From Thalassomonas viridans (lineage in GTDB: Bacteria; Pseudomonadota; Gammaproteobacteria; Enterobacterales; Alteromonadaceae), in contig NZ_CP059733.1 of assembly GCF_000948985.2 (NCBI RefSeq), forward strand, positions 6,572,001 through 6,636,000: a stretch of 64,000 nucleotides of DNA, in the 5' to 3' direction. Within the stretch, counting starts at the first letter, position 1, and each line of letters begins with the position of its first letter. Below the pieces are notes generated by a model, which was not told the DNA's origin, made no database searches, and saw only the letters and a program-made list of their open reading frames with translations. Shown one piece after another: positions 22,472-61,214 of this stretch. Position numbers and translations under genes: made by a program.

Positions 22472-22861
22472 ATGAAGGATTATGACGTAGTTATGGACAA
22501 TTCAATCAATTCCGAAATTAGCATTAAATTTCAAAGAAAAAGCCTGTTTTTTACCAACGAAGACTATATTCAGTTAAACGAACAAGATTCAATTAAACTC
22601 GAACCCCTGGTCTCCCAAACCCTGTTATACCTGATCAATAACTCGGAACGGCCTATTTCCACAGACGAATTACTCAATAAAGTCTGGGGCTGCCGCTACA
22701 AAAGCCAAAAGGTCGTCAACCGCTCCATTTGCCTGGTCAGGAAGGCCCTGCTCGACAACACCAGTGAGCCGACTTTTATTAAAACCATTCCCAAAAGAGG
22801 TTACCGCTTTATCGGTAAGTTTATTAATAAAGACGATCATATTGAATTATTGAGAAATTAA
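22472..22861 (+). CDS. Stand-alone OmpR/CadC-type winged-helix regulator
   Basis: This 129-aa protein is almost entirely a Trans_reg_C winged helix: KLEPLVSQTLLYLINNSERP, then STDELLNKVWG, VNRSICLVRKAL (recognition helix) and KTIPKRGYRFIGKF (wing). It has no receiver domain, membrane helix or sensor part, unlike full CadC or OmpR proteins, so it may act as a constitutive or partner-dependent DNA-binding protein. It is 40 bp upstream of the mbtH-like gene and divergent from the NRPS operon, which makes it the likely pathway regulator. The 11-bp repeats just upstream are its probable site. A second start at Met8 is possible. Confidence 0.85.
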   Translation: MKDYDVVMDNSINSEISIKFQRKSLFFTNEDYIQLNEQDSIKLEPLVSQTLLYLINNSERPISTDELLNKVWGCRYKSQKVVNRSICLVRKALLDNTSEPTFIKTIPKRGYRFIGKFINKDDHIELLRN

Positions 22862-22901
22862 TTCTCCCACCAGCATTTACAGATAAAAGGACAAGAATAA
22901 T

Positions 22902-23111
22902 ATGGATACAAATATCACAGCAGACAACCAGGTATTAATCAATGAAGAAGAGCAATACAGCCTCTGGCCACTGGGCAAAGAAATTCCGGCGGGATGGCAA
23001 AAGGCCGGTTTTGAGGGCACAAAAGAAGCCTGTAAAGCCTATGTAGACGCCCACTGGCAGGATATGCGCCCAAAAAGCCAGAGAGCCTTCTTTGAAAATA
23101 GCGCCAGCTAG
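22902..23111 (+). CDS. mbtH: MbtH-family NRPS accessory protein
   Basis: This 69-aa protein has the full family signature: NEEEQYSLWPLGKEIPAGW, then GFEGTKEACKAYVDAHW and DMRPKS. MbtH proteins bind and activate or stabilise adenylation domains. The AAGGA ribosome site is well placed. The gene follows the wHTH regulator at 40 bp and lies on the strand opposite the NRPS operon, an unusual split that places the accessory protein under separate control. The usual third tryptophan region is present as HWQDMRP. Confidence 0.95.
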   Translation: MDTNITADNQVLINEEEQYSLWPLGKEIPAGWQKAGFEGTKEACKAYVDAHWQDMRPKSQRAFFENSAS

Positions 23112-23125
23112 CGCCTGTTGTTATG

Positions 23126-23153
23126 CTGAGCTCTGCCACACGGCAGAACTCAG
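23126..23153 (+). terminator. Hairpin between convergent mbtH and CPBP genes
   Basis: CTGAGCTCTGCC (23126-23137) pairs with GGCAGAACTCAG (23142-23153), one mismatch, around a 4-nt loop. It lies 15 bp after the mbtH stop and 14 bp before the CPBP stop. There is no clear T tract, so it could serve both directions weakly. Confidence 0.55.
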
Positions 23154-23166
23154 CCGGATATAACCC

Positions 23167-24117
23167 TTAAAACTCAACGCTATACTGAAAAATCGGTACC
23201 TGACCGCCATGATGCAGCTCAGCCAGACCGGCGATCACATTAAACCAGTAATGTAACGCTACTCCCTGGGACAGGTTATAGTTATTTTTCTGGTGCAGCC
23301 AGCCCAGATAGCCGCCGATCACCGCCGCTTCCCCGAAAGAAGCCTGATTGCCGTCGCCGCTGTGCATGGCGCCAAAAAGCACGGAAGAAGCAGCCAAACC
23401 CAGGTTTTCTCCCAGCTGATGGCTTAATTCGGTATTTACATAACCGCGGAAAAAAGCCTCTTCGCCGACCCCGGTAAAGAGATTACCGGCAAAATTACCC
23501 GCATACAGGGTGCCAGAGCTGATATCACCGGAACGCCTGATGGCGTAGACATTATCCCGGGATGAAACATAAGCCGCAAAAAGCAGTAAAGGCACATAGG
23601 TGGAAGGCTTGCTCAGCTGCTCGAACTTAAAAGGAGCCTGCCATAAATCCTTGATGTCCTCGCCCGGGGCAATCACCCCGTGGTTGAACTGGCGGTGGCG
23701 GCTTTTCCGCTTATAGGCATCGTAAGAAGAGGCAAACATGGTATTAAGGAAAACCGTTTGCGCCATATCGGCATTAAAGGTGGTTTTATTGATATAGCTT
23801 TCTTTTAGCGCATCGCTGAATAGCTCATCATCGTCTTCAAAATAATCGTCTTTATCCGAATAATGACCGTACAAGGCCATACCGGCAAGCGCCGTGCCCC
23901 CGTAGGACAAACCGGTAAGAAAATTCCCGTCGAAAAACTGTACCGAGCCGGGCAGCAGTAAACCTGACATGGCGGCCACATTGGCATTGTCCGTGGTAAA
24001 CAAATCTGCTGCAGGAGTTTGAAAATAGCCGGTTTGGCCCGAACTTAATTCACTGCCACCGCCCCAGGCGCAGGAAAGGCCGCAAAACATCAGGCCAAAA
24101 AACAACTTCAACTTCAT
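23167..24117 (-). CDS. CPBP-family intramembrane protease
   Basis: The protein is about 316 aa and starts with a signal-like hydrophobic stretch (LFFGLMFCGLSCAWG). The C-terminal half carries the CPBP (Abi) motifs: EEAFFRGY (Glu223-Glu224 and Arg228 in the longer numbering from 24129), FGAMHSGDG with the second-motif His, and HYWFNVIAG with the third-motif His and Asn. These are the catalytic residues of the Rce1-like glutamate proteases. Start: ATG at 24117 has a GGATG ribosome site; ATG at 24129 adds four residues. Family members can confer self-immunity to peptides or process membrane proteins. It follows a terminator, so it is probably expressed on its own. Confidence 0.8.
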   Translation of the reverse strand: MKLKLFFGLMFCGLSCAWGGGSELSSGQTGYFQTPAADLFTTDNANVAAMSGLLLPGSVQFFDGNFLTGLSYGGTALAGMALYGHYSDKDDYFEDDDELFSDALKESYINKTTFNADMAQTVFLNTMFASSYDAYKRKSRHRQFNHGVIAPGEDIKDLWQAPFKFEQLSKPSTYVPLLLFAAYVSSRDNVYAIRRSGDISSGTLYAGNFAGNLFTGVGEEAFFRGYVNTELSHQLGENLGLAASSVLFGAMHSGDGNQASFGEAAVIGGYLGWLHQKNNYNLSQGVALHYWFNVIAGLAELHHGGQVPIFQYSVEF

Positions 24118-24134
24118 AATATCATCCATAATAC

Positions 24135-24168
24135 TAAAAAAGTCATGATATCAATTAGATACCATGAC
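24135..24168 (-). terminator. Terminator at the end of the NRPS operon
   Basis: Read on the minus strand, GTCATGGTATC (24168-24158), a 5-nt loop, and GATATCATGAC (24152-24142, one mismatch) are followed directly by TTTTTTA. It lies 77 bp past the stop of the JmjC-like gene and just before the CPBP start, so it probably ends the 37-kb operon. The dyad could also be an operator of the CPBP gene. Confidence 0.65.
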
Positions 24169-24244
24169 ATCTGTAAAAAAGTGTCGTCAAAAAAGTTACA
24201 CTTAATAACACTTATCCGTTTAGCGATAAAAACTTCAACATCGC

Positions 24245-25117
24245 CTAAGAAACATAATTCAGGTAACTTTTATAGTATTTGAAAAATACCGACTCCGGGG
24301 CCCGGTTTAATAAACGCATCAGGGTCAGACTGTTGTAATAAAAGTTTTCTTCCGGTATGCCTTTATTAACCGCTTCCACCCCCTGCCAGGCACTGCTGAT
24401 ATCATGGAAATCGATATTAAAGGAAATGCAGGTATCCAAAGAGCGTACATGATGCAAGGTACCGCCGGGCATAAACAGGATATCACCGGCTTCCACATCC
24501 ACCACCTGGGTATTGGCCCGGTTATAATCGCTGAAGGCCCGTTCGTCTATCTGCTCTGGATCCAGCTTAAACCAGCGCCAGTTATGCTGTCCGCAATTTT
24601 CCGCTTCGCTGTAGGGCATCAGGGTAAAGCGTTTGGTGCCCCGGATCTGGAAAAACAGGTTATGGGTGAGCAGACAGTCAAAATGCAGCGGGGTAACGCT
24701 GCCGGCAGGTCCCAGGAAAAACTGGCAGTACTGCCACCAGTTCTTATAAATCTCAGGCAGGAACTCAACCGGAAAGTCGCAAATATCGTCTTTTAATGCC
24801 GGTTCGCTGTTAAAAATAGGAATGTCATGACAATAGGAAGGAAACTGCCCACCGGGATTTTCTTCGTAAGCCCTCAGCTGCTGGCAATATTCGCCAAGCA
24901 GCTCCTGCTCCTTGATGATCTCATCGTTTTCAAAGCGTTTCACCGGCACCTGGGTTTTGGCAAAATGCTCCTGAAAATAATCCAGCCCCCATTTTTTGGT
25001 TGCCTGCCAGTTTTTGCAGCCGCCTTTTAATAACATGGGCTTCTGCTGTTCCAGATATTTCTCTTTAAAAGCTTCCGCGGTGATATTTTCCAATATATCG
25101 ACTTGATAAGTTTTCAT
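24245..25117 (-). CDS. JmjC/cupin-8-like Fe(II)/2-oxoglutarate dioxygenase
   Basis: This 290-aa protein is of the cupin_8/FIH type. The iron site is visible as His145-x-Asp147 in VTPLHFDC and a distal His at 222/223 in GGTLHHVRS. KRFTLMP is the usual 2-oxoglutarate-binding Lys/Arg region. The N-terminal PMLLKGGCKNWQATKKWGL is the standard start of the family ('P.ll.g...W.a...w'). Homologues hydroxylate amino-acid side chains in proteins or NRPS intermediates. It is the last gene of the NRPS operon, 68 bp after the RND pump gene, which suggests it tailors the peptide (for example beta-hydroxylation). Substrate unproven. Confidence 0.8.
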   Translation of the reverse strand: MKTYQVDILENITAEAFKEKYLEQQKPMLLKGGCKNWQATKKWGLDYFQEHFAKTQVPVKRFENDEIIKEQELLGEYCQQLRAYEENPGGQFPSYCHDIPIFNSEPALKDDICDFPVEFLPEIYKNWWQYCQFFLGPAGSVTPLHFDCLLTHNLFFQIRGTKRFTLMPYSEAENCGQHNWRWFKLDPEQIDERAFSDYNRANTQVVDVEAGDILFMPGGTLHHVRSLDTCISFNIDFHDISSAWQGVEAVNKGIPEENFYYNSLTLMRLLNRAPESVFFKYYKSYLNYVS

Positions 25118-25185
25118 AGCTTTCCTTAATACTTAATAGTTTCAATTAATTGCTTTTATTATTTTTATATACGCCGGCATAGTGC

Positions 25186-28100
25186 CTATGCCGGACTTTG
25201 CATTATTGCTGGATCTGTGACCTCTGCCGGCCGGGATAAGATCACCGGGATCATCACCAGGGTGACAAAGGTGCAAAAAAGTACGCCGAAGGCCAGGGAT
25301 ACCGCCATGGGAATGATCATGTGCGCCTGGAGATCGGTTTCAAACATCAGCGGCAACAGGCCGACAAAGGTGGTTAAAGAAGTCAGGACCACGGCCCTGA
25401 ACCTGGAACAGGCGGCATCGGCGACATCGCCGAGCTCAAGCCCGCCTCTTGCATCCCGCCTGTGATTCACGGCCGCCAACAACAACAGGGAGTCATTAAC
25501 CACAACCCCTATGGTGGCGACTATGCCGAAAACAGACATCAGGCTCATGCCCATACCCAGGAATAAATGTCCCCAGATGGCGCCCACCAGGCTAAAGGGG
25601 ATCACCGACATCACGATCAACGGTTGCTTATAGGATTTCAGCGGGATCGCCAGCAGGGCAAAAATGGCAAACAGGGATAACAGGGCATTGACCATTTGTC
25701 TCGACAAACGTCCCCGCTGCTCCTTAATGTCCCCTTCCAGGCGGAATTCTATGCCGGGATAACGCCGTGCAAATTCAGGGAAGATTTCCTCTTCAATTTG
25801 CTCGCCGTAACTTTCCGGATCTATCTGGTTGCTGTCTATGCTGGCCATTACCACCACATTGCTGCGGCCGTTGTCGCTTCTTAGTTCCGTCGGCGCATAT
25901 TCGAAATCAATCCGGGCGACGTCCGCAAACAGGGCTTCGGCCCCGTCCGGCAGCCTGATGCGCAGGCTGTGGATTTCGTTGATATCGTGACGGTAAGCCT
26001 GCGGATAGCGCAGCATAACTTTTACCTCAAAGTTATCCCGCAATATTCTTTGCACTTCCAGGCCGTAGATGGCATGGGAGATCTGCGCCACCAGCATTTC
26101 CGGGGTCAGCCCCAGCGAGCGCCCGAGTTCGGTGACCGCCAGCCGGATTTCTTCCTCGCCATGGCTTAAACTGCTGGTGACATCGTACACCGCCGCCTGC
26201 TGCGCCAGCTCCCGGGTCAGGGCAGTACTGGCCGCCGTCAGCAGTTCCCCCTGTTCGCCGATAACATGCAGCCTGAGATCCCTGTCTTCATCGTCTTCCA
26301 GGGTTTCCTTGATCAGGTATTCTTTCAGCCCCGGCATTTGCGGCAGCACCTTGCGCCACATGGCGGCAATTTCAAAGGTATTGATCGGCCTGAGTTCATC
26401 GTCCACCAGTTTGACAAACAGCTCGCCTGAATAGGCGTCTTCCAGCACAATAGCGGTATGCTCTATCACCCCGGCGCCATAAAGCTGCTCAATTTCCTTG
26501 TCCACCTCTTTCACCGCCTGCTCGAAGGTTTTCAGGGTCTCCACCGTCATCTCTTCGCTGGCGCTTTTTTCCATATAGACATAGATCGAAGGGAAATCAT
26601 GGGGCACCCTGGGCTCGCCGATCCAGTTAACATGCCCGCCTGTGGTCAAGCCGATGGTCACCAGGAAGAACATCACAAAGCCGGTTAACACCGAACCCCG
26701 GTAGGGCTGCAGCCTTAAGATAAAATTGCGGTAGCGCTTGTGGATAAAAGCATCCAGCTTTTGCTGTATGCCCCGTTGAAAACGCGCGAACAGGCCATGG
26801 GGATTTTTTTCCGGGCCTATGCCCCCCAGGTGGGCAGGCAAGATCAGTTTCGACTCCACCAGAGAGAAAAACATGGTAAAGACCACCACATAACCTATGG
26901 TTTGAAAAAGCCCGCTGGATTCGCCGCTGATAAACAGCAGGGGCACAAATGCCGCTACCGTGGTCAGCACCCCGAATATCGACGGCACGGCGACATCCTT
27001 CACCCCCGCCAGGACATTGTCATGGTGATAGCCCTGCTTGTTGCAGCGCTGGTACACGCTGTCGGAGATCACTATGGCATCGTCCACCACTATGCCCAGC
27101 ACCAGGATAAAGGCAAACATGCTGATGATATTGATGGTGACATTTACCGAATCCAGCGGCAGCAACATCATAGTACCGAGATAACTGACCGGCACCCCCA
27201 CCATCACCCAGAAGGCCACCACGGGGCGCAGGAACAGCGACAGCACCAGCAACACCAGCAAGGCGCCGCTGAACATGTTGTCCAGCATCATATCGATGCG
27301 GCCGTCGACGTAATAGGTAAAGTCTATCCAGGCACTCAGGTGCGTGCCCTCCGGCAGCTTGTCCTGTTTTTCGGCTATATACTCACGCACTGCGGCAGAC
27401 ACCGAAGAGATATCCTGCTGCGGCGTGGCGCTGATCATCATGATCCTCGACGGCCGGCCGTCAAAGGTGGAGAAAAACACCAGCTCTTCAAAGCCGTCTT
27501 TGACCCTGCTGATATCCCCCAGGGTCACGTTCACCCCTTCGCGGGTATTGATGATGGGAATGGCGGCATAATCCGAGGCGGCATAGGCCTGGCCTTCTAT
27601 CCTTAAACTGGTATTGCCCTGGCTGTTCTTCAAAAAACCCGCCGACTGGTTCAACGAATGCTCATTGATGCGCCCGGCGACATATTCCATGCTGATGCCG
27701 TACTGGCTCAGGGCATCCCGGTCCACCTCAATGCTGACTTCAAAATCCTGTCCGGTTTCCGCCGCCACATATTGCACTTCCGGCAACTGCAACAGCTCCA
27801 GATAAACATCCTGGGCCAGCTTTTTCAGCTGGGTCTGGGTCAGATCGCCATACAGGGCCAGGTACATCACCGGATGAGTCGGCTCATGGTGCGAAATCAC
27901 CGGCCGGTCGATATCCCCGGGCAAAGTCTGGATGGCATCCACCTGCAGCTTGACCCGGTTCAATACCGTATCGACATCAAAGTCGCTGTTGACGATCACC
28001 GTCACTTCGCTATGCTCACGGCGGCTGATGCCGATCACCTGCTCCGCCCCCGCCAGCCCCTGGATCGCCAGCTCTATCTTGTCCGTCACCCCGAGTTTAA

Positions 28101-29435: not shown

Positions 29436-29437
29436 AA

Positions 29438-31923: not shown

Positions 31924-31926
31924 GTC

Positions 31927-54000: not shown

Positions 54001-57000
54001 GTCACTGTGCCCAACACCAGATCCCGCTCGCCACAGCTGTGGCCGAGCAAGGCATAAAAAGCGCTGAGATAAACATTAAAAGCCGTGGTACCCTGCAGCG
54101 TTGCCAGCCTGGAAAGATCTGAGGCCAGCGCCTGCGGCAGCATCACCCTGTGATGTCCGGCAGGAGCATCAGTCCCGGAGGTTTTAGCAAAATCCCTCGG
54201 CAAACCGACACCCAAATTGGCATCCGCCAGATATTGCTGCCAGAAAGTCTTCTGGCGCCCGGCCTCCTGGCTATCAAGCCATAACTGCTGCTGCCTGCTA
54301 TAAGTGGCATAAGACACGGCACACGGCTCCAGGGTATCTTGCTGATAGGCCAGCTGCAGGTCTTCAAGCAAGATTTTCAGCGACCAGCCGTCGATCACTA
54401 TATGGTGGGCAACCACCAGCAAAGTCTGCTGTTCCTCAGGCCCGATCAAATAAATCCTGACCGGGCAGTCCTTATCCAGGGCAAAAGGGGTATTTTTTAA
54501 TTTCAGCAGCAGGGGTTCCAGCTCATCCTGGGAGGCCAACGGCAAGCAGGTCAATTCAAGATTATTAGCCGGCTTACGCAGCAACTTATCCCCCTGTTGA
54601 TAAAAAATATCGGTCAGGCCGCCATGGCGGGCCATCAACCGGCTAACCGCCTGCGACAGGCGCTCCGGATTCAGGCTGCCGCTGACGCTGGCGCTGAAAC
54701 CGACATTGTAGGCGACACTGTCCGGCTCCAGATCCTGCATCAGGTACATGCGCTTTTGCGCATTGGTGGCCTGGGCAAAATCATCCGAGTTGTCATCCGC
54801 CCCGGCAACCAGGGTCAGTTTCTGCGCCATATTCGCCAGCCCAGGCGATGAAAAGATATCTGCCGAAGTCAGTTGCCAGCCGCTCTGGTACAGTTGATGG
54901 ATAAGGGCGATGGCTTTAAGGGAGTCGCCGCCGCGCTGGAAGAAATGGTCACTCCTGCCCGCCTTGCATGCCAGCACCTGCTGCCAGGCATCCGCCAGCA
55001 CTTGCTCCGCTTCGCTTTCGGGCGTCAGGTATTCATGGTGCTCGCCGCGGTCTTCGTCTGTCGGCGCCGGCAGGGCGGCAGAAGAAATCTTACCGTTGGC
55101 GGTTAAGGTAAACTGTTCGACAAAAACTATCGCCGACGGCAACAGATAATGGGCCACCCGCTTTTCCAGCCAGGCCAGCAACGCCTGCCGGGTCAGCAAT
55201 GCCGGATCGGCATCTGCCTCAAGCGATACATAGGCGCAGAGATATTGCTGTCCGAGATCTTTGCGTACCTGGACATAACTTAATTTGATTTCCGGATGGC
55301 GGTTCAGCTGCACCTGCAACTCTTCCGGCTCTATCCTGTGACCGTTGATTTTAACCTGGTTGTCCACACGCCCGAGGAAATGCAGCATCCCGGTTTCGTC
55401 CTGCACCACACGGTCACCAGATTTATAGATAATGCCGCTGCGATAGTTATCTCCGACAAATACCTGCCGGGTCAGGTCTTCCTGCTGCTGGTAGCCATGA
55501 GCGACCCCCTGGCCCCCCAGGTATAATTCGCCGGGCACACCCAGCGGCAACAGGCTGGCGTAATTGTCCAGCACATAATGATAGGACCAGGCACAGGCCC
55601 GCCCCAGGGGTACGTGATCTGCGGCCAGGATACCCTGATCTAACTTGCAGGTGGTTGAGAAAATACTGTTTTCCGTCGGTCCGTAGGCACTGCACAGCAC
55701 CCCGGGGAAACCGCTGTCCAGCAGCTGGCGGCAATACTGCACCGGAATCACTTCACCGCCGGTCCAGAGTACGGAATAGCCGTGTAAAATTTTGGCATCC
55801 GTCTGCACATACTGGTTGAACAGGGCCACTGTCATAAAGCCATAACTGACCTGATATTTTGCCAGGGCCAGGCCAAAACGCCTGGCGTCCAGTACTTCTT
55901 CCTGACGGATCACCGCCAGGCAAGCGCCGCTTAATAACGCCGACCAGATTTCAAAGCTGGCGCCGTCAAAAGCGGTATTGTTCATAAAGCTCACCACCTG
56001 GTTTTCGTCCAGGCCGCCCTGCTCAGGATTGAGCACCAGGCGGCTGATGCCGCGATGCGGGGTTGCCACGCCTTTAGGACGGCCGGTGGAGCCCGAGGTA
56101 TAGATAACATGAGCCAGGGTATCCGGCGAAACTCGCTCCAGCGGCGCCTGGGTGGAATAATGTTCCAGTTCAAGTTCCGCCAGGTTAACCTGCCGGCATC
56201 CAGGGATCAGGGTCTGCAGTTGCTCAGACACCAACACCAGCGGCAAGTTACATTGCTGCTGCTGGTATTCCAGGCGGCTGGCGGGAGAATTAACATCCAG
56301 GGGCACATAAGCGGCCCCGAGCTTAATCACTGCCAGGGCGGCAAGCACCCAGTCGATTGAGCGCGGCATGGCAACACCCACCAGGGTACCGGCGCCGACT
56401 CCCTGCTCCATCAGGTAGTGGGCCAGCCGGCTGGATTTCTGATCCAGCTCCCGGTAACTCAGCCTGCTGTCCCCTTCCGCCAGGGCGGTATGTTCGGGAA
56501 AATGGGCGGCAGCCTGCAAAAAGCCGCTAACCAGATCTGTCACCTGACAGGGTTCGCTGAAATTCGGCAGGCCCATTGCCAGCAGCTCCTGCTGTTGCGT
56601 GCTGTCCACCAGGACCAGGCGGTAAAGCGGCATGTCCGGATTTTGCGCCAGTTGCTGTAGAAAGTGCACAAAGCCCGCCTGGATGGACGCTACCGATGCC
56701 GGGTTAAACATATCCAAAGCATAAACAAAACGGCCGGATGGCTTATCGCCTTCATGCTGCATCACCAGGCCCCAGTCGGCTGAACTTTTGTCTTCAACAG
56801 CTCCGTCATAAAAAGCCACCTGGCTGAGGGTGCTGATTTCAAAAGCCTGCCCGGGGTAAACTTCCTCTGCCAGGGAAACCAGCAGCCGGTGTTGCTGTTC
56901 CCTGTCCTGCCATGCCTGATAGATGCCGCCGGCACATGCCGTAAACGAAAGCTGATGGTCACACAAGACCCGCAGTACTGTCATCCGCTGCCCGGATAAA

Positions 57001-57317
57001 GGAACGGCAATAAGCTGTTCCCCCTCACCGGTTAAACGCGAGTTATAGGCGACAAATGCCGACAAATAAAGCACAAAAGCGGGCATTTCCAGCTTAAGGG
57101 CCAGTTCCGTCAACATAGCAGCAAGGGCCGGCTCAAGTACAAAATCCAGGCTGCCGCTCTGCCCGCTTCTTTCGGCGGGCACGGCAAGCGAGGTTGGCAA
57201 ACTGGCCGCGGGAGAGGTTTGCGAAAGTTTCTGACGCCAAAAATCGGCATCCGGGTTAGCAACAGGAGATTCAGAAGAGGTATTTGTTTTTTTTATACTA
57301 GGCATTACGTGTTCCAT
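36030..57317 (-). CDS. Seven-module nonribosomal peptide synthetase, 7095 aa
   Basis: Domain order read from motifs: a C-domain C-terminal half only (about 20-240, no HHxxxDG), A1 (core about 407), T1 (799), then C2 (973), A2 (1432), T2 (1819), C3 (2007), A3 (2476), T3 (2861), C4 (3050), A4 (3507), T4 (3901), C5 (4085), A5 (4551), T5 (4937), C6 (5130), A6 (5601), T6 (6002), C7 (6188), A7 (6651), T7 (7028). There are no E, TE or methylation domains. The C-terminus is basic (AAKKRQRRERV) and may dock to the PKS. Hand-read pocket codes (positions 235-331 plus Lys): A1 and A5 DGFFWGAIFK, A3 DAFFWGGIFK (aliphatic type), A2 and A4 DIWQITADDK (Dab suspected), A6 DFWSVGMVHK (threonine), A7 DSLILAAVGK (unassigned). 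C7 has CHLIADG instead of HHxxxDG but keeps the catalytic His. The start has GAGAA upstream. Confidence 0.95.
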   Translation of the reverse strand: MEHVMPSIKKTNTSSESPVANPDADFWRQKLSQTSPAASLPTSLAVPAERSGQSGSLDFVLEPALAAMLTELALKLEMPAFVLYLSAFVAYNSRLTGEGEQLIAVPLSGQRMTVLRVLCDHQLSFTACAGGIYQAWQDREQQHRLLVSLAEEVYPGQAFEISTLSQVAFYDGAVEDKSSADWGLVMQHEGDKPSGRFVYALDMFNPASVASIQAGFVHFLQQLAQNPDMPLYRLVLVDSTQQQELLAMGLPNFSEPCQVTDLVSGFLQAAAHFPEHTALAEGDSRLSYRELDQKSSRLAHYLMEQGVGAGTLVGVAMPRSIDWVLAALAVIKLGAAYVPLDVNSPASRLEYQQQQCNLPLVLVSEQLQTLIPGCRQVNLAELELEHYSTQAPLERVSPDTLAHVIYTSGSTGRPKGVATPHRGISRLVLNPEQGGLDENQVVSFMNNTAFDGASFEIWSALLSGACLAVIRQEEVLDARRFGLALAKYQVSYGFMTVALFNQYVQTDAKILHGYSVLWTGGEVIPVQYCRQLLDSGFPGVLCSAYGPTENSIFSTTCKLDQGILAADHVPLGRACAWSYHYVLDNYASLLPLGVPGELYLGGQGVAHGYQQQEDLTRQVFVGDNYRSGIIYKSGDRVVQDETGMLHFLGRVDNQVKINGHRIEPEELQVQLNRHPEIKLSYVQVRKDLGQQYLCAYVSLEADADPALLTRQALLAWLEKRVAHYLLPSAIVFVEQFTLTANGKISSAALPAPTDEDRGEHHEYLTPESEAEQVLADAWQQVLACKAGRSDHFFQRGGDSLKAIALIHQLYQSGWQLTSADIFSSPGLANMAQKLTLVAGADDNSDDFAQATNAQKRMYLMQDLEPDSVAYNVGFSASVSGSLNPERLSQAVSRLMARHGGLTDIFYQQGDKLLRKPANNLELTCLPLASQDELEPLLLKLKNTPFALDKDCPVRIYLIGPEEQQTLLVVAHHIVIDGWSLKILLEDLQLAYQQDTLEPCAVSYATYSRQQQLWLDSQEAGRQKTFWQQYLADANLGVGLPRDFAKTSGTDAPAGHHRVMLPQALASDLSRLATLQGTTAFNVYLSAFYALLGHSCGERDLVLGTVTSGRHWPGIDRTLGLFVNTLALNYHLDPELSFLQLLDSVSENTRRAFAHQDLPYDEIVQQVDAPQSGLFNVMFDMQNSFLLDQVAMEQASLAVTKLEAGHAQFDLSVTLDCSNQGIELVLQYDKSLYLDSRISALADKYLALLTGICAQPGDKVSGLLQLNQADQLLFDAFAEQKGSEHEIEHYLDVFERAVQNYGDKTAVVDDSGSLTYKALDDKANQLAMVLVNSGVKLEDPVGVHLKRGIPVMVAMLAIFKAGGCYLPLDTRFPPQRIANLLDEHNIKVVISAGEGPFENVIKVAPDAQAAQAVDLTAILRSPHQLAYVLFTSGTTGKPKGAMTSHKGMVNHNWAALDALHFTDEDCFAQTAGLSFDISVWQYLAALMKGARVAILDDDTVLDPLLFLNKLQTWQVSVLQTVPVQLQQLLDEVAAGAYDSLGDLRHLIPTGEALPPEMARRWFRRYPDIPMLNAYGPAECSDDVTLHLMHQTPAQSYAQLPIGKPVPRSSVYLLDDSLAPVPQGAVGEICIGGETVLGRGYLHAPGLTAAAFVANPFGKAGSRLYRTGDLGRYNNKGELEFLGRRDFQVKIRGMRLEIGEVESVLEQAPKTKRCVVSLEKGVLVAYLESELTVAELQAHAEAWLPDFMTPTHYLVLEQIPVTANGKVDRKSLPSLSESELVAGGEAPLPGLESELAQDYAEMLDRPLSQIGRDGHFFRLGGHSMLAMRLISRLRQRYGLGSALTVKAVFEHPSISDLAACLESLQPATDAAIEHQVLAPEQRFGLSFSQQQLVWFEQLQPGTPLYNMPVAWRLKGDVDSDKLAAGIHWLQQRHAMLRARLDLTDGYRQYISESFQELSLVQPGPVISAEAWVKSVAVKPYELGGALFNPLLAQFPDGSSVLVLGMHHLITDAWSSQVLLADLQAFYHDRLAEREDAVSGIEFADVVAYQQSESYQKQQQKQLDWWQQQLADAPLVATLPTYKTRPQQRDFNGFTLSFSLSEETSELLAQQAKSWDASLFMVLLSAFKAYISRLTGQRDLIVGVPVAGRNQQGVENITGMFVNSLPFRTLCEHDSSFADYVQQVKNHWLTVLAYQDTPFEQIVDRMQIERTAGTNPLIQMMFNFEHDETEVCGDALEFKEIITNHDTAKFDYLLAMALREQRLHGEFEFAADLFDRQQAEALVDGFCHFVGQLAQHASRSLKAASLVDESRAQSLIALGQPAFEPKCDTVDLISGFLTAAGKHGDSAAVLEDNHSISYRELDRRSSQLANYLAAQGVEAGHYVGIAMARSIDWVVIALGIIKTGAAYVPIAPDSPAARLEYLQQQCQLAYVFTGEGTLPCQAFEQLQLAKLPLAQYSEISPQESVPVDSVAQIIYTSGSTGQPKGVVMPHRAISRLVLNPEQGGLDETQVVSFMNNPAFDAATFEIWSALLSGAALAVVHQDDVLEPARFALSAAKYGISYGFITAGLFGQYVQHDPKMLHGYARLWVGGEAVPTHLCHRLMTSGFNGVLANGYGPTENTIFSATYAFTEQELAEGDAPIGRACAGSYHYVLDSHGKLLPAGTPGELYLAGERLTQGYNGREDLTAAAFVADPYRGGTMYKSGDLVVMTDDGVLRFLGRVDNQVKIRGHRIEPEELQVQLNQYPEVEASYVKVREQNQQKYLAAYVQPKAGGSELNREDLLVWLKEKVSSYLLPSTISFVDSFKLTVNGKIDGRSLAEPTQEDWGKVVSSDQELTATARQLAAIWQELLGVAPLAGDDFFRLGGNSLLVMQLLKKVREHFSVELPAASVFVHQELTAIAAVIDELAIVSDTANDIFSARAPQDFELASPAQSRMFFMQQMESENTAYNINLVLRLSALPDREKLGRALELLTEAHPALKEQFKETEQAVVRVAGAAPQLTVEQKDFADSEQALAYANELNNRAFDLTCGPLLRLTLIQGKADVLLALSVHHIVLDGWSLNTLFRDLDMAYRSGELATDSRQYRDYCYQQSLWLASDAAADQQAFWQEYLTDAVTGMTLPTDQAKRADKQGKAGFYRQTLTAEQVATLDGLAKQQGITPFTLYLSLFSALMAQTTGEQDVLLGTVTSGRQWGDFSETLGLFINTLVFRQQVNFDLSLEDFLAQSAESYHKVLANQELPYDEVMRQQGSGEPSPLFNVMFDLQNSFDQQGISLGDLQATVCPQPALDAQFDLTVTLEQTGHGMAVNFEFDLSLYQESSIVRFAGKYAALLQRVCQHPEGKVGRLLQLDQADQLLFDAFAEQKGSEHEIEHYLDVFDRAVQNYGDKTAVVDDSGSLTYKELDDKANQLAMVLVNSGVKLEDPVGVHLKRGIPVMVAMLAIFKAGGCYLPLDTRLPPQRIASLLDEHHIKVVISAGEGPFDSVIKVAPDTQAAQAMDLTDIPRSPHQLAYVLFTSGTTGKPKGAMTSHKGMVNHNWAALDALYFTDEDCFAQTAGLSFDISVWQYLAALMKGARVAILDDDTVLDPLLFLNKLQSCQVSVLQTVPVQLQQLLDEVAAGAYDSLGDLRHLIPTGEALPPEMARRWFRRYPDIPMLNAYGPAECSDDVTLHLMHQTPAQSYAQLPIGKPVPRCSVYLLDDSLAPVPQGAVGEICIGGETVLGRGYLHAPGLTAAAFVANPFGEAGSRLYRTGDLGRYNNKGELEFLGRCDFQVKIRGMRLEIGEVESVLEQAPKTKRCVVSLEKGVLVAYLESELTVPELQAHAEAWLPDFMTPTHYLVLEQIPVTANGKVDRKSLPSLSESELVAGGEAPLPGLESELAQDYAEMLDRPLSQIGRDGHFFRLGGHSMLAMRLISRLRQRYGLGSALTVKAVFEHPSISGLAACLESLQPATDAAIEHQVLAPEQRFGLSFSQQQLVWFEQLQPGTPLYNMPVAWRLKSDVDSDKLAAGVHWLQQRHAMLRARLDLNDGYRQYISESFQELSLVEPEAGLSAEDWVKSMATRPLALDGPLFQPYLAHFPDGELVLLLNMHHLITDAWSSQVLLADLQAFYHDRLADHEDRTSGIEFSDVVAYQQSDDYRKQQQKQLDWWQQQLADAPLVATLPSYKTRPQQRDFAGFTLNFTLSEETSELLAQQAKSWDASLFMVLLSAFNAYISRLTGQRDLIVGVPVSGRSQQDVENITGLFVNSLPFRTLCEHDSSFADYVQQVKKHWLTVLAYQDTPFEQIVDRMQVERTPGVNPLIQMMFTFDQNEDQSREQELGFEEIMTSHDTAKFDYLLAMALQDKCLYGEFEFAADLFDRQQAQALVDGFCHFVGQLAKHAGQALKTASLVDENRASALITLGEPAFEPKHATPDLISGFLTTAGKYGDRPAVLEDNLSISYSELDRRSSRVANYLAAQGVKNGHFVGIAMARSIDWVVIALGIIKTGAAYVPIAMDSPEARLEYLQQQCDLAYVFTGEQQLPCRTFEQLQLAALPLAQYGISSPLTAISADAIAHVIYTSGSTGQPKGVMTPHRGISRLVLNPEQGGLDETRVVSFMNNLAFDGASFEIWSALLSGAALAVIHQDDVLEPARFGQAIAAYGVNYGFMTIALFNQYVQRDPSLLHPYARLWTGGEVIPVQYCRQLLDSGYGGQLCSAYGPTENSIFSTTYALDQHRLSADDVALGRACAGSYHYVLDGHGKLLPAGVPGELYLAGEGVALGYLGRDDLTSAAFVTDPYREGIMYKSGDVVVMTDDGVLRFLGRVDNQVKIRGHRIEPEELQVQLNQYPDVELSYVQVRKQNGQMYLAAYVQPKAGVGELKREDLLAWLKEKVSSYLLPSTISFVDGFKLTVNGKIDGRSLAEPVQEDWGKVVSSDQELTATAQQLASIWQELLGTEPLAGDDFFRLGGNSLLVMQLINRVREVFAVELAVVNVFASHELVKMAELVESQLQQQQGSRISDMPQISLCENREHFPLSYAQERLWFLAQLEPDSLAYHLPLAYRLKGELQLNALKKALNELANRHQVLKSVFVTREEETGQQVLLDAKVPFKLHYCEPEELEQELACASAQPFDLSKGPLFRADVFLLDDESVLLLNVHHAMADGWSLGVIADELAELYGAYVRRETPALPELAFQYGDFASWQLHHFSSDSYRQQLDYWQQQLKDSPDLQLYTDFPRAAVRSEAGATYSLMLPVPAYQALQQLEQKGYSGFNVMLAAYALLLMRYAGQDDVVIGTPVAGRQTKELESLVGFFVNMLPLRVRSEQGMDFDTLLSHVRETLVAGLENQQVPFEQIVQQLVSKRDTSRTPLFQAVLSYQDLPYQGISMQGLEVEAIDPQLDVAKYDLLLTVTPHQQSLDLTMEYSTGLFTEASIAGMMQNFVSLLTALLEQPQQDIYALPLLDRQGVAALWQSHMRERVDLTVTDSIQARFEAVAATYADRTALVSGDTVLNYRQLNEQANRLAWQLKGLGVTAETLVGVCVNRSAEMLVAILAVLKAGGAYAPIDPEHPQERIDYVVKDSGLGLVLAEAGLHQLFDGHELSCLALDNETQPDMPEENPPRVSGPDNLAYVIYTSGSTGLPKGVLIEQRSVIRLFDATAKRIPINEQDVWSLFSACTFDFSVWEIWGALFHGGKLVVVPSLVAKSPEDFRQLICAQGVTQLSQTPAAFLQLVREDMKHSSQLPVKRVVLGGDEIDFGALKPWYEKYRDSIDIINMYGITEITVHATHRLIRPQEVLEGDGKASLIGDGISDLDILVLDSCQNPVPVGVTGEIYVAGAGLARGYLNLPELTAERFIDNPFSPLQQEKRQDKMYRSGDLARFTPDGDLEYLGRCDNQVKIRGFRIELGEIETLLVQAPEVSEALVMAGKDKHGHQYLVAYVLAGEDQTLVSRLRQYLKQLLPDYMVPAYFVVMPEFPLTSNGKIDRRALPEPQQQSSQEAGGELPHSQVQKIIAHVFQDLLALEQVYLDDNFFEIGGHSLLATQVISRLEKQLGQKIPMREFFRCATVRELAKLFGDDTPPGGGETVADGEQQGGKMPATMMQQSLYIAQELLADKSAYNMPLLMELEGELDTARLQHAIGQLWQGHSALRQYLVNDSEGLWQQHLDKSHAVPFEIFSLTAAEDFSQMCQDYAEQEFDLGQGPLFRAGLFRQGDRACLVMVVCHLIADGWSLSVMAEDLTAIYGQGLSAELEGSDYAGYQPMAQQTLEQGLGWWQQSLAQAPQQHALPVNIDRELSRHQAATEEFVLEQGIAEQLVALSQQQGMSLFMTLVAAWQLVQHKFSGETDIITGFPVSGRDNADWERTVGLFVNTLPLRGQIDPGQQVADFFGQIRDFAFSALDYQSIPVSQIVEAVNPVRQLGVNPLFQISFSLQNLPSDSIELAGLKVTPVNSQLASVKLDLCWFVQESEQGLVFQLEYDKDLFSSLYVRSLTQAFRHLLVQLPQVLNRPVKQLELVSGEMKALLDSWSHNPGGWPELSTLHQEFERRADEQPEAEAVSFLGGESLSFAVLEAKANQLARLLSKRGISAGSRVVLCLPKSVDIVIAQLAVLKTGAAFIGLDPELPAQRLEYILADSRADLVLHQGNENLAGTGLDLSALEQQIAGESKQRLNLAVSHQDLAYIIYTSGTTGKPKGTMLHHGAVMGFARNDDNLLGITAQSRVLQFASVAFDSAVLEIWASLMNGATLVMADKYALMPGAALADTLKQSRVNFAILFPSVLANTPVGDYPALTTILTAGEAPTAKLLQAWSAPGRRIINAYGPSEAGVGVCMGDFSLADAGKPHMGTPRPGSSLFVLDEQGQQLPPGAPGVLHIGGECVGLGYFDKPELTAQKFIHSPLSSGVLYNTGDLVRYDMQGNLLFIGRVDNQVKVRGYRVELEEVEASLCREAGVQQAAVLPKVVNEQVVGLSAYVVTAQQAELTEIRDGLRSRLPHYMVPDYWCVLPALPTDVNGKVKRNALPEAKPIAAGKQKQASTDLQRRLAGLWQQVLGHDNFGVEDNFFDVGGQSILATKLQLLLKEALNRPVDLMLLFKHTTIAQQARWLTDGESKQQQSVGSRAGNKRLAAKKRQRRERV
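42480..47309 (-). repeat. Intragenic duplication, copy 2 (A4-T4-C5-A5-T5)
   Basis: This 4.8-kb part of the NRPS gene is nearly identical to 48711-53540 at a constant offset of 6231 bp (2077 codons), checked by eye at three points across the block. The match breaks in the substrate-binding core of the A5/A3 pair. Confidence 0.85.
48711..53540 (-). repeat. Intragenic duplication, copy 1 (A2-T2-C3-A3-T3)
   Basis: This is the upstream-module copy of the 4.8-kb duplication. The C4 domain (about 47309-48711) lies between the copies and is not part of the close repeat. The adenylation core around 49440-49790 is diverged from its partner. Confidence 0.85.
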
Positions 57318-57347
57318 ACGTTTCTCGGCAAGGGCCCTAAAGCAGCT

Positions 57348-58571
57348 TTAAGGCTTTACATCAAAAATAGCGTTGGCAAAATCAATATACATGACGCGGT
57401 TTTCACTGGTGTCTACACCTATGCGTCCGTCACATTGGGTATGCTTGCAGTCGATATGATCCATTCTTAGATCGATTTTTTTTAAGTGGGTCTTTTGCGA
57501 AGGAAAGGAAAAATAGACGTCCGGGATCACCGCAAATTTTTCGGTTTGTCCCTTGCCGCCTATGCCGTTAAAGCGCTTTTCTTTCCAGTCCGCCACGGTA
57601 AGGTTATTTTTCGCCAGATACTGGGGAGTGACCTGGCTGTTCATGGCCCCGGTGTCGAGAAACAGCATCAGCTGCTTGTCCCGGCTGTCGGAAGTGATGA
57701 CCAGGGGGTCATCAAACAGCCATACCAGATTTTTTTCCTTAGCCGCGGACGGCACAGGCCGGGCAAGCGTCAGCCGGTCACGGTTGAAATCTAGGGTTAA
57801 GGCCAGCTGTTTCAGTACCGGCCAGCCGATAATGCCGTCCAGCCGGTACCAGTTAAAGCCGAGAAAAGTCTGCTGAAGATCGTCACCGTCCACTACTACG
57901 GCCGGTTGCCGGTAAAAACTGGCAGGCCCGAGCTGAAACTCAGGCATGATCACGGCAAAGGCCGCGGCGGCTTCACTGTTGGCGGTATCTATATTGACCT
58001 TCTGGCCGCCAGGCAAATCGAGTTTTAACTTTTTCGCCAACTTATGGGAAAGCACATTCACCGACGCCCCGGTATCCAGCACAAAATAATAACTTTTTCC
58101 CGCCAGCCTGATCTTCACCCTGGGCAGGGACACCAGGAAATGGCTCTCTAACGGCATAGTTGCCGAGTCCTGCAGAAACTCAGTCACAGGTTTTCCCTGT
58201 CCCTGATACAGGCCCGCCAGTACGGCATTAACATCATCCGGGGCAACAATCCCCTGTTTGACCAGCTGGCCGATTTTGTCAAACGCCTGCAGTTCGGTAA
58301 GCAGCAACAGCCAGCGGGATAACAGGAAACTTTTCTCCTGCTCCGTCTGGCTGTTGCGGTACATCTTTTCCAACTCTGCCTGCGCCTGTTCAAAGTCGGC
58401 ATCCAGCATCAGGCGATAGACCTGCCTGAGCTTATGCTCAAAGGGTTGCCGGTCAGCGCCGTCAGCCTTTATCCAGGATAAGTCAGGTATTTCCAGTTTA
58501 TCCTCTGCTGTTATTGCCATAACGCTCCCTGAAAAATAGATGAAAAAAAAGATCAGTAACCAGCCCCGCAT
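57348..58571 (-). CDS. Exported two-lobed retropepsin-like aspartic protease
   Basis: This 407-aa protein has a signal peptide (LLIFFFIYFSGSVMA), a helical N-terminal part (about 20-130), and two aspartic protease lobes. Each lobe has its own catalytic triplet, Asp166-Thr-Gly-Ala-Ser in VLDTGASVNVLS and Asp306-Thr-Gly-Ala in LFLDTGAMNS. Single-domain retropepsin-like enzymes normally dimerise; here both halves are in one chain, as in pepsins. ATG at 58571 shares a base with the aspartokinase stop. The NRPS follows after 30 bp. Its place in the biosynthetic operon suggests maturation, resistance or product release in the periplasm. Role not shown. Confidence 0.8.
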   Translation of the reverse strand: MRGWLLIFFFIYFSGSVMAITAEDKLEIPDLSWIKADGADRQPFEHKLRQVYRLMLDADFEQAQAELEKMYRNSQTEQEKSFLLSRWLLLLTELQAFDKIGQLVKQGIVAPDDVNAVLAGLYQGQGKPVTEFLQDSATMPLESHFLVSLPRVKIRLAGKSYYFVLDTGASVNVLSHKLAKKLKLDLPGGQKVNIDTANSEAAAAFAVIMPEFQLGPASFYRQPAVVVDGDDLQQTFLGFNWYRLDGIIGWPVLKQLALTLDFNRDRLTLARPVPSAAKEKNLVWLFDDPLVITSDSRDKQLMLFLDTGAMNSQVTPQYLAKNNLTVADWKEKRFNGIGGKGQTEKFAVIPDVYFSFPSQKTHLKKIDLRMDHIDCKHTQCDGRIGVDTSENRVMYIDFANAIFDVKP

Positions 58572-59854
58572 CAAGCCTGCTCCTCAAGGATGTGAAAACC
58601 GGCCTGCTGCATCACCAGCTTGGTATGCAGCAAGCGCAGGGCCTCCACTACCTGGTCCCTGGCCACGATCAGGCAGCGGCTATGGGGGAATTTATCCACC
58701 GACAGACACTGGCAGGCGATACCCTGGTCGAACAGGGTCTGCCGGATCTGCTCCGGCGCCGGCAAACGGCTGTTGTCAAACACGGAAATCAGCGAGGTTT
58801 CTATGCCCTGGTAATAAAAGCAATGTTCGGGTTGAGCCTCGGTCAGGCGGGCTTCGCTGGAAATCAGCCTTAATTCCGTGCTTGCCTTGTCCCGGCAATA
58901 AATGTCGAGCCGATTGTCGTGTTGCTCCAGGTGCACCCCGTTAAGGGAAGTGATCACAGTCACTGCCGGGCGCATGCCGCAAAAATGTATCCGGGTGCCG
59001 TCATGTGCGGGATCCAGGGTACATTTAAGCTCCAGGGTCAGGCGGTGATCCGACAAGGCCGCCAGGGCCGGGGCATGGATAACCGCGGCACCAATTTGCG
59101 CCAGGATACATAAATCGCTGAAAGCGATATGGGGAATAAGCTCGGGCGCTTCCACCACACGGGGATCGGCGGAATACAAACCGTGCACTTCCTTCCAGAT
59201 TTCCAGGCGCACGGCATTGCAGGCGATGGCAAACAGGGCCGCCGACCAGTCCGATCCGTTGCGGCCGAGATTTACCAGCTGCCTGCCTTCATCCAGGCCG
59301 ATAAAACCTTCGGTCACCCGGAGATCATGGCAGTCGCTGCAGATTTCCCGGCACAGTTGCTGCATCTGCTGGTAGTCGGGCACCAGTTCTCCCTGCTCCC
59401 GGTAAACCCGGATCCCTTGAGTGGCATCGAAATAACCCGGCCCGAGGGAGCAGGCCTTGAAAACCCCCAGCATCAGCTGGGCGGACAACCGCTCTCCCAG
59501 GGTAATGATCTGCTGATAATAGCTTTCGACATCCGTTAAAAAATGCTCCAGCTGTTCAAACCAGTATCTGATCGCCGACAGCACGGGAATGAACTCGGCT
59601 TCGGCGTGTAATGTCCGGGCAAGCTGCAAGCTTAAGCTGATATGCTGCTGGTGCAGAGCCTCCACTGCCTGCGCCTGCGCTTCACCCGGCGACAGGCTCA
59701 ACAGCCGGGTCAGCTGGTCGGTCACCCCGCCGCAGCCGGATACCACCACCAGCACCTTAGATTTCTGCTGCTGACGCCTGACTATTTCCACCACCCTTAA
59801 AATAGAGTCGATACAACCCAGACTGGCGCCGCCAAACTTCATTACGACTAACAT
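58571..59854 (-). CDS. Aspartokinase dedicated to the cluster
   Basis: This 427-aa protein has the aspartokinase signature VMKFGGASLG at residues 4-13, SGCGGVTDQLTRL, and the sugar-nucleotide region GRNGSDWSAALFA followed by WKEVHGLYSADPR. Two ACT-like regulatory segments lie in the C-terminal 130 residues. It makes aspartyl phosphate, the first step toward aspartate semialdehyde. It directly follows the aminotransferase gene, one base separating stop and ATG. A pathway-specific aspartokinase beside a diaminobutyrate aminotransferase recalls the ectoine-type Ask and suggests extra flux to Dab. Dehydrogenase function must come from the housekeeping enzyme. Confidence 0.9.
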   Translation of the reverse strand: MLVVMKFGGASLGCIDSILRVVEIVRRQQQKSKVLVVVSGCGGVTDQLTRLLSLSPGEAQAQAVEALHQQHISLSLQLARTLHAEAEFIPVLSAIRYWFEQLEHFLTDVESYYQQIITLGERLSAQLMLGVFKACSLGPGYFDATQGIRVYREQGELVPDYQQMQQLCREICSDCHDLRVTEGFIGLDEGRQLVNLGRNGSDWSAALFAIACNAVRLEIWKEVHGLYSADPRVVEAPELIPHIAFSDLCILAQIGAAVIHAPALAALSDHRLTLELKCTLDPAHDGTRIHFCGMRPAVTVITSLNGVHLEQHDNRLDIYCRDKASTELRLISSEARLTEAQPEHCFYYQGIETSLISVFDNSRLPAPEQIRQTLFDQGIACQCLSVDKFPHSRCLIVARDQVVEALRLLHTKLVMQQAGFHILEEQA

Positions 59855-59855
59855 A

Positions 59856-61214
59856 TCAATGTTTCAACGCAAGTTTGATGCTGTATTCCAGGATCCTGAC
59901 CGCCTTGTTGATCTCATCATAATCTATGGTGAGCACCGGCAGCAGGCGGATCACCGCCCCGTGGCGGCCGCCGGTTTCAACAATCAGACCTTCGAGGAAA
60001 CAGGTTTTCTTGATCTCTTTCGCCAGCTCGCCGTCGGCGGCGGCATTGTCTGAATCCGGCTTGATCATTTCGATCCCCAGCATAAGCCCGCGACCGCGGA
60101 CATCGCCGATCTCCGGGTATTTTTGCTGCAGCCTGAGCAGCTTGTCTTTCAAGTATTTACCCTTTTCCGCCGCGGCCTGGCATAAGTTGTCCCGCTTGAT
60201 GATTTCCATGGTTTTGCAGCCGGAAACCATGGCCATCTGGTTGCCGCGGAAAGTACCGGCATGGGAGCCCGGCTGCCATTTATCATATTTTTCCTTGTAA
60301 ACCACCACAGACATAGGCAAGCCGCCCCCTATGGCTTTCGACATCAGGATGGCATCGGGAATAATGCCGGCCTCTTCAAAGGCAAACATCTGGCCGGTAC
60401 GCCCGAATCCGGACTGCACCTCATCCAGCACCAGGGGAATATCGTAACGGGTACAGATATCCCTTAATCCCTGCAGCCATTCTTTCGGTGCCGGGATACA
60501 ACCCCCTTCCCCCTGCAGGGCTTCAAGGATAATGGCCGCCGGTTTGGTAATGCCGCTTTCCGGATCCGCTAACACGGACTCGATATGGCACAGGGATACC
60601 GAAGTCAGCGCTTCTCCCCTGACTCCATACGGGCTGCGGTATTCGTAGGGAAAAGGAAAATAATGCACGTCCGGCATCAAAGAGGCGACATGCTGCTTGG
60701 CGGTTAAATTGCCGGTCAGCGCCAGGGCTCCCGCCGTCATGCCGTGATAGCCGCCGTGGAAGGCGAATACGGTTCTTCTTCCGGTGGCAGTTTTTAACAG
60801 CTTAATAGCCGCTTCTGCGGCATCGGCGCCGGTGGGGCCGCAAAACTGGATTTTTGCCTGCTCCCTTAATGCTTGCGGCAGCACCGAAAGCAGTTGCTGG
60901 GTGAAGTCATATTTGGCGGGGGTTAAGATATCCAGGCCCTGCATAATATGATCCGAGTCCAGGTAATCTTTGAGCACCTGGGTAATTTCACCGTGCCTGT
61001 GTCCCAGGGCAAGGGTACCGGCACAGGACAGGAGATCCAGGTACTCCAGGCCTTCGGCATCCGTGACCACAGAACCTTTACCGGAAACGATCAGTTTGTT
61101 TATCGTTCTCGAATAGGTTCTGGCATTTGATTCTATGTTGTTTTGTTGCCTGCTGTGCTTTTCACTGTCGGTTAACGGCTCAAGCTCTACACGCCCGACG
61201 TCTATCTGTTCCAT
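59856..61214 (-). CDS. dat: L-2,4-diaminobutyrate:2-oxoglutarate aminotransferase
   Basis: This 452-aa class III PLP aminotransferase has its PLP lysine at Lys293 (MSKAIGGGLPMS). VLDEVQSGFGRTG holds the cofactor-binding Asp. The N-terminal ESNARTYSRTINKL and LLSCAGTLALGH match the Dat/PvdH group that turns aspartate semialdehyde into Dab, more than ornithine or GABA aminotransferases. EctB is the alternative, but no ectA or ectC is nearby. It is the first gene of the long minus-strand operon, so Dab supply is induced together with the NRPS. Dyad sequences lie in its leader. Confidence 0.88.
   Translation of the reverse strand: MEQIDVGRVELEPLTDSEKHSRQQNNIESNARTYSRTINKLIVSGKGSVVTDAEGLEYLDLLSCAGTLALGHRHGEITQVLKDYLDSDHIMQGLDILTPAKYDFTQQLLSVLPQALREQAKIQFCGPTGADAAEAAIKLLKTATGRRTVFAFHGGYHGMTAGALALTGNLTAKQHVASLMPDVHYFPFPYEYRSPYGVRGEALTSVSLCHIESVLADPESGITKPAAIILEALQGEGGCIPAPKEWLQGLRDICTRYDIPLVLDEVQSGFGRTGQMFAFEEAGIIPDAILMSKAIGGGLPMSVVVYKEKYDKWQPGSHAGTFRGNQMAMVSGCKTMEIIKRDNLCQAAAEKGKYLKDKLLRLQQKYPEIGDVRGRGLMLGIEMIKPDSDNAAADGELAKEIKKTCFLEGLIVETGGRHGAVIRLLPVLTIDYDEINKAVRILEYSIKLALKH

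Follow-up and report, generated by a model that had tools for sequence, protein, structure and literature searches.

Dab (diaminobutyrate) alternates with aliphatic residues in lipopeptides of the pelgipeptin and polymyxin type, which carry a lipid starter and epimerised residues and are cyclised by a thioesterase. A Dab module is also found in PvdL of the pyoverdine pathway; pyoverdine is a siderophore, and the rest of its pathway is unrelated to the locus described here. We analysed a window of 64,000 nucleotides from Thalassomonas viridans (contig NZ_CP059733.1, positions 6,572,001 to 6,636,000), part of the larger of the two contigs that make up a genome of 7.95 Mb. At positions 22472-61214 of the window there is a non-ribosomal peptide synthetase-polyketide synthase (NRPS-PKS) cluster with a predicted Dab alternation, but without any recognisable lipid starter, epimerisation or thioesterase cyclisation features. 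We consider it fairly likely that this is a complete orphan operon making a Dab-alternating peptide with reductive release, and that it belongs to a conserved family. The flavipulchrins (PMC12819058) are likewise seven-residue NRPS-PKS products of a Pseudoalteromonas, but they are lipopeptides initiated by a starter condensation (Cs) domain, contain Gly, Asp, two Asn, Thr, Leu and Arg, and are released by a thioesterase; they come from a different cluster.

The nearest counterpart is an uncharacterised cluster in three related genomes (G653, G659 and G660), whose genus, as far as the evidence points, is Pseudoalteromonas. G659 and G660 both have the full set of genes, from a small regulator through to the Dab transaminase, in unchanged order, while in G653 a contig ends inside the NRPS and the transaminase, an aspartokinase-like protein and an aspartic protease are present. 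The block conserved in G659 and G660 coincides with 22472-61214, and because the flanking M16 peptidase and TonB-dependent receptor had no match in the relatives' stretches searched, we set the cluster boundaries at these positions. The NRPS and KS-AT-ACP-reductase open reading frames (ORFs) are both intact, and the observation made in a preliminary description of this DNA, which had called the cluster complete, is confirmed. That description had also named no product with this residue order; the cluster does match a family from end to end, and this family is itself uncharacterised, with no described product of the same residue order found in the open literature (subscription literature and MIBiG were outside the scope). 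What began as a guess from a single window is in this way a testable conserved cluster family with boundaries fixed by synteny. We regard it as a new and probably orphan form of NRPS-PKS cluster with reductive release, representing a real and probably unexplored natural-product family, the activity of which is a guess.

The NRPS (36030-57317, minus strand, 7095 amino acids) contains seven adenylation (A) domains, seven carrier motifs of the form GG(H/D/N/Q)S, six full condensation (C) domains and a further, partial one in two pieces. A script read the specificity codes from alignments of the A domains, with A2 as the anchor. In the order of assembly, with approximate minus-strand coordinates, these are A1 (DGFFWGAIFK, 55086-56516), A2 (DIWQITADDK, 52008-53441), A3 (DAFFWGGIFK, 48888-50330), A4 (DIWQITADDK, 45777-47210), A5 (DGFFWGAIFK, 42663-44105), A6 (DFWSVGMVHK, 39453-40949) and A7 (DSLILAAVGK, 36372-37814). 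A1, A3 and A5 are of an aliphatic type (DxFFxG), which we take to denote Val/Ile, A2 and A4 are Dab-type and A6 is Thr-type. Codes and domain order thus agree with the preliminary description, which had read aliphatic-Dab-aliphatic-Dab-aliphatic-Thr followed by an unassigned residue, a malonate unit and a reductase. The window NRPS is 54% identical to each of those of G659 and G660 in end-to-end comparison (54.1% over ~7000 columns), and despite this distance the predicted order of residues is almost unchanged. Specifically, the codes of A2, A4, A5, A6 and A7 are identical in five NRPSs (window, G659, G660, P0128 and P0130). At the two slightly different positions, the other four have DAFFWGCVFK for A1 and DGFFWGGIFK for A3, which are presumably still aliphatic-type. 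The G659 and G660 synthetases are 96% identical and P0128 does not differ from either in its A-domain identities, so the five NRPSs represent about three independent lineages.

The Dab call rests on comparison with PvdL, whose code DIWELTADDK (alignment read by hand) agrees with that of A2 and A4 at 8 of 10 positions. Of the 64 sequences in the PDB that the A2 core matches, those of PvdL rank at the top, and the solved chain with this code is, we assume, the Dab module of PvdL. The resemblance to pyoverdine synthetases that the preliminary description had offered therefore holds. In a control set of 587 codes, only 8 agree with PvdL at 8 or 9 of 10 positions, forming with A2 and A4 an island of DIW(E/Q)xTADDK-type pockets, and the remainder agree at 5 or fewer. 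The control set was drawn from 118 other large NRPSs (the best 120 of 722 minus two family members), picked by similarity to the module of A7 rather than at random, and its 587 usable codes remained from 709 A domains after 122 with gaps or a missing D235/K517 were dropped. One control code is identical to that of A2, so the Dab-type code of A2 and A4 is itself not new. For a call read from a code, the assignment of Dab to A2 and A4 appears strong. L-Dab is listed among the pyoverdine units in a figure legend of PMC11267755, and the A6 code DFWSVGMVHK is printed in the Thr/Dhb section of PMC12283262. The best control matches reach 7/10 for the A1/A5 code and 8/10 for the A3 code. Several of the nearest controls of A7 are xxAAV-type codes, presumably aromatic-type, and a hydrophobic or aromatic residue at this position (X7) is a guess.

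None of the C domains adjoins another in a search for Condensation domains, so the NRPS has no epimerisation (E) domain. No starter C domain was found either: module 1 holds only the C-terminal part of a C domain (approximately 56523-57260, minus strand), lacking the HHxxxDG motif and recognised from partial PF00668 stretches and from alignment with the relatives. A dedicated fatty-acid (acyl) ligase was not recognised among the 13 cluster proteins, and together with the remnant state of the first C domain this leads us to predict no lipid tail, unlike in cationic lipopeptides of the polymyxin or alterin type. Because neither starter C nor E domain was found, we favour a peptide with a free N terminus, probably all-L residues and a terminal beta-keto aldehyde over a lipopeptide, which we rejected for lack of a starter domain. 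In a tree of C domains, all six full domains of the window fall within one clade (support 0.98) that holds 117/120 mid-line and 4/14 after-E domains. The tree sampled all 14 E, all 14 after-E, 120 of 633 mid-line and 30 of 84 first-position domains, with 16 classed as 'other' left out.

Several points weigh against these assignments of residues and configuration. The substrates are read from codes, and codes are not assays; none of the control codes is labelled with a substrate, and the calls of 'aliphatic' and 'aromatic' depend on general background about such codes. A7 has no close match among the 587 controls, the best agreeing at 7/10. The clade on which the all-L prediction is based also contains 3/14 E and 16/30 first-position domains, the tree is rooted at its midpoint and the window NRPS itself was the source of its search model. 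Within that clade C2 and C4 branch at the edge, so an all-L product is likely but not proven, with epimerisation as the less likely alternative. Finally, E278 of PvdL is replaced by Q in A2 and A4. A Dab code with Q at position 278 (DVWQMIGDDK), tied to beta-hydroxylation, is given in PMC12283262. Codes of the form DIWQ(I/L/V)TADDK were also observed in P0236 (A4), P0206 (A3 and A5), P0238 (A4) and P0239 (A4), with domains counted by script; as these are other large NRPSs, Q278 recurs within the Dab-type island of codes. Overall, the codes and their conservation give good support to the predictions of Dab and of residue order.

Self-comparison by BLAST suggests how the alternation may have arisen. 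The bimodule tract A2-T2-C3-A3-T3 (48706-53531, minus strand) is 84% identical at the DNA level to its partner A4-T4-C5-A5-T5 (42475-47300, minus strand) over 4.85 kb, and no comparably long duplicated tract was found in G659. At the protein level A2 and A4 are 95% identical in the window, compared with 58-61% within the relatives. The simplest reading is that the X-Dab repeat goes back to an old, family-wide bimodule duplication that was recently homogenised in the window lineage; in the Pseudoalteromonas cluster A2 and A4 are not homogenised. Since window A4 is 66-69% identical to A4 of the relatives and window A2 58-59% identical to their A2, the A4 copy probably overwrote A2.

Downstream of the NRPS, the PKS protein (31927-36033, minus strand; Pfam and NCBIfam matches, 53% identity in G659 and G660) consists of KS, AT and ACP domains followed, after this last carrier, by a terminal thioester reductase (32005-33069, minus strand; TIGR01746 at 279 bits, above its curated cut-off). 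The cysteine and histidine motifs of the KS, the serine of the ACP and the YxxxK motif of the reductase are present, as judged by eye, and KR, DH and ER domains were not found in the PKS protein with Pfam or NCBIfam. Three congeners contained no orthologue of the PKS (best matches 41% and 40%, and no match in the third). Reductase domains of this kind release aldehydes (PMC7586950).

The genes are tightly packed in an operon on the minus strand, running from the Dab transaminase at 61214 to a CPBP protease at 23167 in the order transaminase, aspartokinase-like protein, aspartic protease, NRPS, KS-AT-ACP-reductase, MFS exporter, APH-like kinase, RND adaptor, RND pump, JmjC-type oxygenase and CPBP protease. 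We infer the following pathway. The aspartokinase-like protein and the transaminase, together with a housekeeping semialdehyde dehydrogenase, would convert aspartate to Dab. The NRPS would load an aliphatic residue as a starter with a free N terminus and build (Val/Ile)-Dab-(Val/Ile)-Dab-(Val/Ile)-Thr-X7, with X7 hydrophobic or aromatic and all residues probably L. One malonate-derived C2 unit would then be appended by KS-AT-ACP and kept as a ketone, and the reductase would release a beta-keto aldehyde. Such a group is expected to react with an amine, so a macrocycle or an enaminone is plausible; the aldehyde probably forms a ring with an amine or is trapped otherwise. The JmjC enzyme probably acts as a hydroxylase on one residue, the MFS and RND pumps would export the product, and the CPBP protease, the APH-like kinase and the periplasmic aspartic protease may serve in self-protection or maturation.

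The Dab supply genes are present in all three relatives, and the claim of the preliminary description that the cluster carries its own Dab supply is supported. The diaminobutyrate-2-oxoglutarate transaminase (59856-61214, minus strand) matches TIGR00709 at 534 bits, above the cut-off, and is 66-67% identical in G653, G659 and G660. The aspartokinase-like protein (58571-59854, minus strand; 39% in the same three genomes) was recognised from domain matches and from PDB alignment, in which the match to aspartokinases of solved structure is mostly confined to residues 1 to about 290. No ACT domain was matched in it, which is consistent with, but no proof of, an escape from feedback control. With this protein as the query, 14 loci in the genome contigs showed aspartokinase-like matches at 24-31%.

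Among the remaining genes, the two-lobed, pepsin-like aspartic protease (57348-58574, minus strand; PF13650, 45% in G653, G659 and G660) carries two DTG motifs and, judged by eye, a signal peptide, and the catalytic Asp of both D-T/S-G motifs is invariant across 20 aligned sequences. Its structural model has a predicted local distance difference test (pLDDT) score of 82, and its closest fold is 9iy9, a Bacteroides endopeptidase, with a template modelling (TM) score of 0.63, followed by a tethered HIV protease and pepsins with TM scores to the query of 0.33-0.44. With two catalytic motifs and a modelled bilobal beta fold, the protein is assigned to the clan AA aspartic proteases. A role in defence was considered and rejected, as PADLOC gave weak hits only. 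Besides the aspartokinase-like protein, the cluster encodes a second kinase, an APH/choline-kinase-like phosphotransferase (29438-30526, minus strand; 42-44% in G659 and G660) with HPEN and IDP motifs. It has no Pfam hit of its own, APH was matched in 2 of 5 aligned proteins and the catalytic motif, read by eye, is conserved. Its model is weak (pLDDT 66), and the fold search returned YihE, sugar, APH and choline kinases and a few protein kinases at E-values of ~1e-5 and TM scores of at most 0.46; its sequence profile found no meaningful match in the PDB (best E-value 0.67).

The other accessory proteins are an MFS exporter (30526-31923, minus strand; PF07690, 70-71% in G659 and G660), an RND periplasmic adaptor (28281-29441, minus strand; TIGR01730 above cut-off, 38%), an RND efflux permease (25186-28281, minus strand; PF00873 at 475 bits, 54%), a Cupin_8/JmjC Fe(II)/2-oxoglutarate hydroxylase (24245-25117, minus strand; PF13621, JMJD5-like with JMJD5 as the best PDB matches, 63%) and a CPBP/Rce1-like (CAAX-type) intramembrane protease (23167-24129, minus strand; PF02517, 59%) with EExxxR, FxxxH and HxxxN motifs by eye. 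The CPBP family includes bacteriocin immunity proteins, and this protease is a candidate self-immunity factor. Past the end of the operon, the plus strand encodes a small DNA-binding regulator with Trans_reg_C only (22472-22861; PF00486, syntenic in G659 and G660 at 52%) and an MbtH-like protein of 69 amino acids (22902-23111; PF03621 at 64.7 bits, 51% in G659 and G660). The RND and MFS exporters, a kinase and an oxygenase had already been named in the preliminary description, which overlooked the MbtH gene, the pepsin-like protease and the remnant C domain and left the kinase without its APH-like affiliation. To our knowledge, Dab alternation, beta-keto reductive release, a secreted pepsin-like protease, a CPBP protease and an APH-like kinase have not been seen together before. 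Discovery of the product would reveal what the accessory proteins protect against or process; a silent cluster in Pseudoalteromonas has been switched on by promoter replacement (PMC12819058).

What the product does is a guess, and several explanations can be weighed. The preliminary description had proposed a membrane-active cationic peptide built on an X-Dab-X-Dab-X run; such a strand might disturb membranes or attach to targets in the outer membrane. The alternation is kept in five NRPSs, and the efflux pumps and CPBP protein in both complete relatives, but no lipid is predicted, the seven-residue chain would carry only the charges of two Dab residues and the N terminus, and a reductive warhead is atypical for membrane lysis; we regard the proposal as a tentative possibility. 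Alternatively, the peptide may be a prodrug that is matured in steps, with cytosolic phosphorylation of Thr or of a hydroxylated residue by the APH-like kinase and trimming of the exported peptide by the periplasmic protease. The kinase-like motifs and fold, the signal peptide of the protease and the presence of the kinase in both complete relatives and of the protease in 3/3 are in line with this idea; given the weak kinase model, the protein kinases among its fold hits and the failure to recognise a phosphatase in the cluster, we find it rather doubtful. A siderophore served by the adjoining TonB-dependent receptor, which lies upstream of the operon (61604-64000, minus strand) and runs past the window end, is highly improbable: hydroxamate or catechol enzymes were not recognised in the operon, and we rejected this candidate as the receptor is outside the conserved block and unmatched in the relatives' stretches.

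The protease is central to a further explanation, in which the unit of a hydrophobic X7 and malonate forms a statone or beta-keto aldehyde warhead of a protease inhibitor, and the cluster protease either soaks up the product or is a copy of the target that the product does not affect. We judge this unlikely. In its favour, the protease occurs in every relative within a tight group of 20 with invariant catalytic Asp; it could equally be a maturation enzyme, and no second copy was found in the source genome at an E-value of 1e-15, so no sensitive target homologue is evident. Statine-type inhibitors have an amino acid-malonate unit in which the ketone has become a hydroxyl; the PKS shows no KR for this step, and no ketone reductase was recognised in the operon, a reductase elsewhere in the genome not having been sought. 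More specifically, the C-terminal warhead of a Dab-containing peptide may block a pepsin-like protease, with the two-lobed, insensitive protease of each cluster providing target-based self-resistance. We know of no described cluster with such an arrangement and consider it distinctly improbable. The pepstatin pathway (PMC12081711) is alike in having an amino acid-malonate unit whose ketone is left unreduced by the assembly line, the statine ketone being reduced afterwards and not by a PKS ketoreductase; it differs in using discrete trans-acting enzymes and an F420H2-dependent reductase. It is also quite unlikely that the product has already been described, in the sense that the ureido-containing alteropeptilides of Pseudoalteromonas flavipulchra S16 come from this Dab NRPS-PKS family. 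Ureido formation usually requires a full first C domain, which the window NRPS does not have. In support of such an origin, PMC12819058 presents the alteropeptilides as linear peptides from a silent cluster of the same genus. An orphan operon for a Dab-alternating peptide with reductive release is the reading we retain.

The distribution of the cluster was assessed through its protease and kinase. Among the best 120 of 253 protease matches, 19 score at least 304 bits and the next scores 94, and these 19 carry names from Photobacterium, Pseudoalteromonas, Chitinibacteraceae and others. This cluster-specific group of 20 two-DTG proteases may mark further clusters. A protein search for the kinase gave four relatives, one of them from P. 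piscicida. The protease is present in 3/108 genomes of the relatives' genus (G653, G659 and G660) and, in order- and family-level samples that overlap and of which the family sample missed carriers that exist, in 1/247, 1/395 and, with a Photobacterium query, 1/394 genomes, always the source genome only. The kinase was likewise found in 1/247 order genomes, again the source genome only. Such a patchy spread would fit horizontal transfer, with loss as the alternative. Across 72,556 plasmid records, the start of the NRPS had no DNA-level match and the protease no tblastn match; the A2 domain matches 2,383 records, all at <60% identity (best 42.8%), and these are ordinary NRPSs. Rfam gave 0 matches in the window. 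Elsewhere in the source genome, 43 of its 62 Condensation-domain hits lie within 314094-583866 of the smaller contig, an unusually dense NRPS region.

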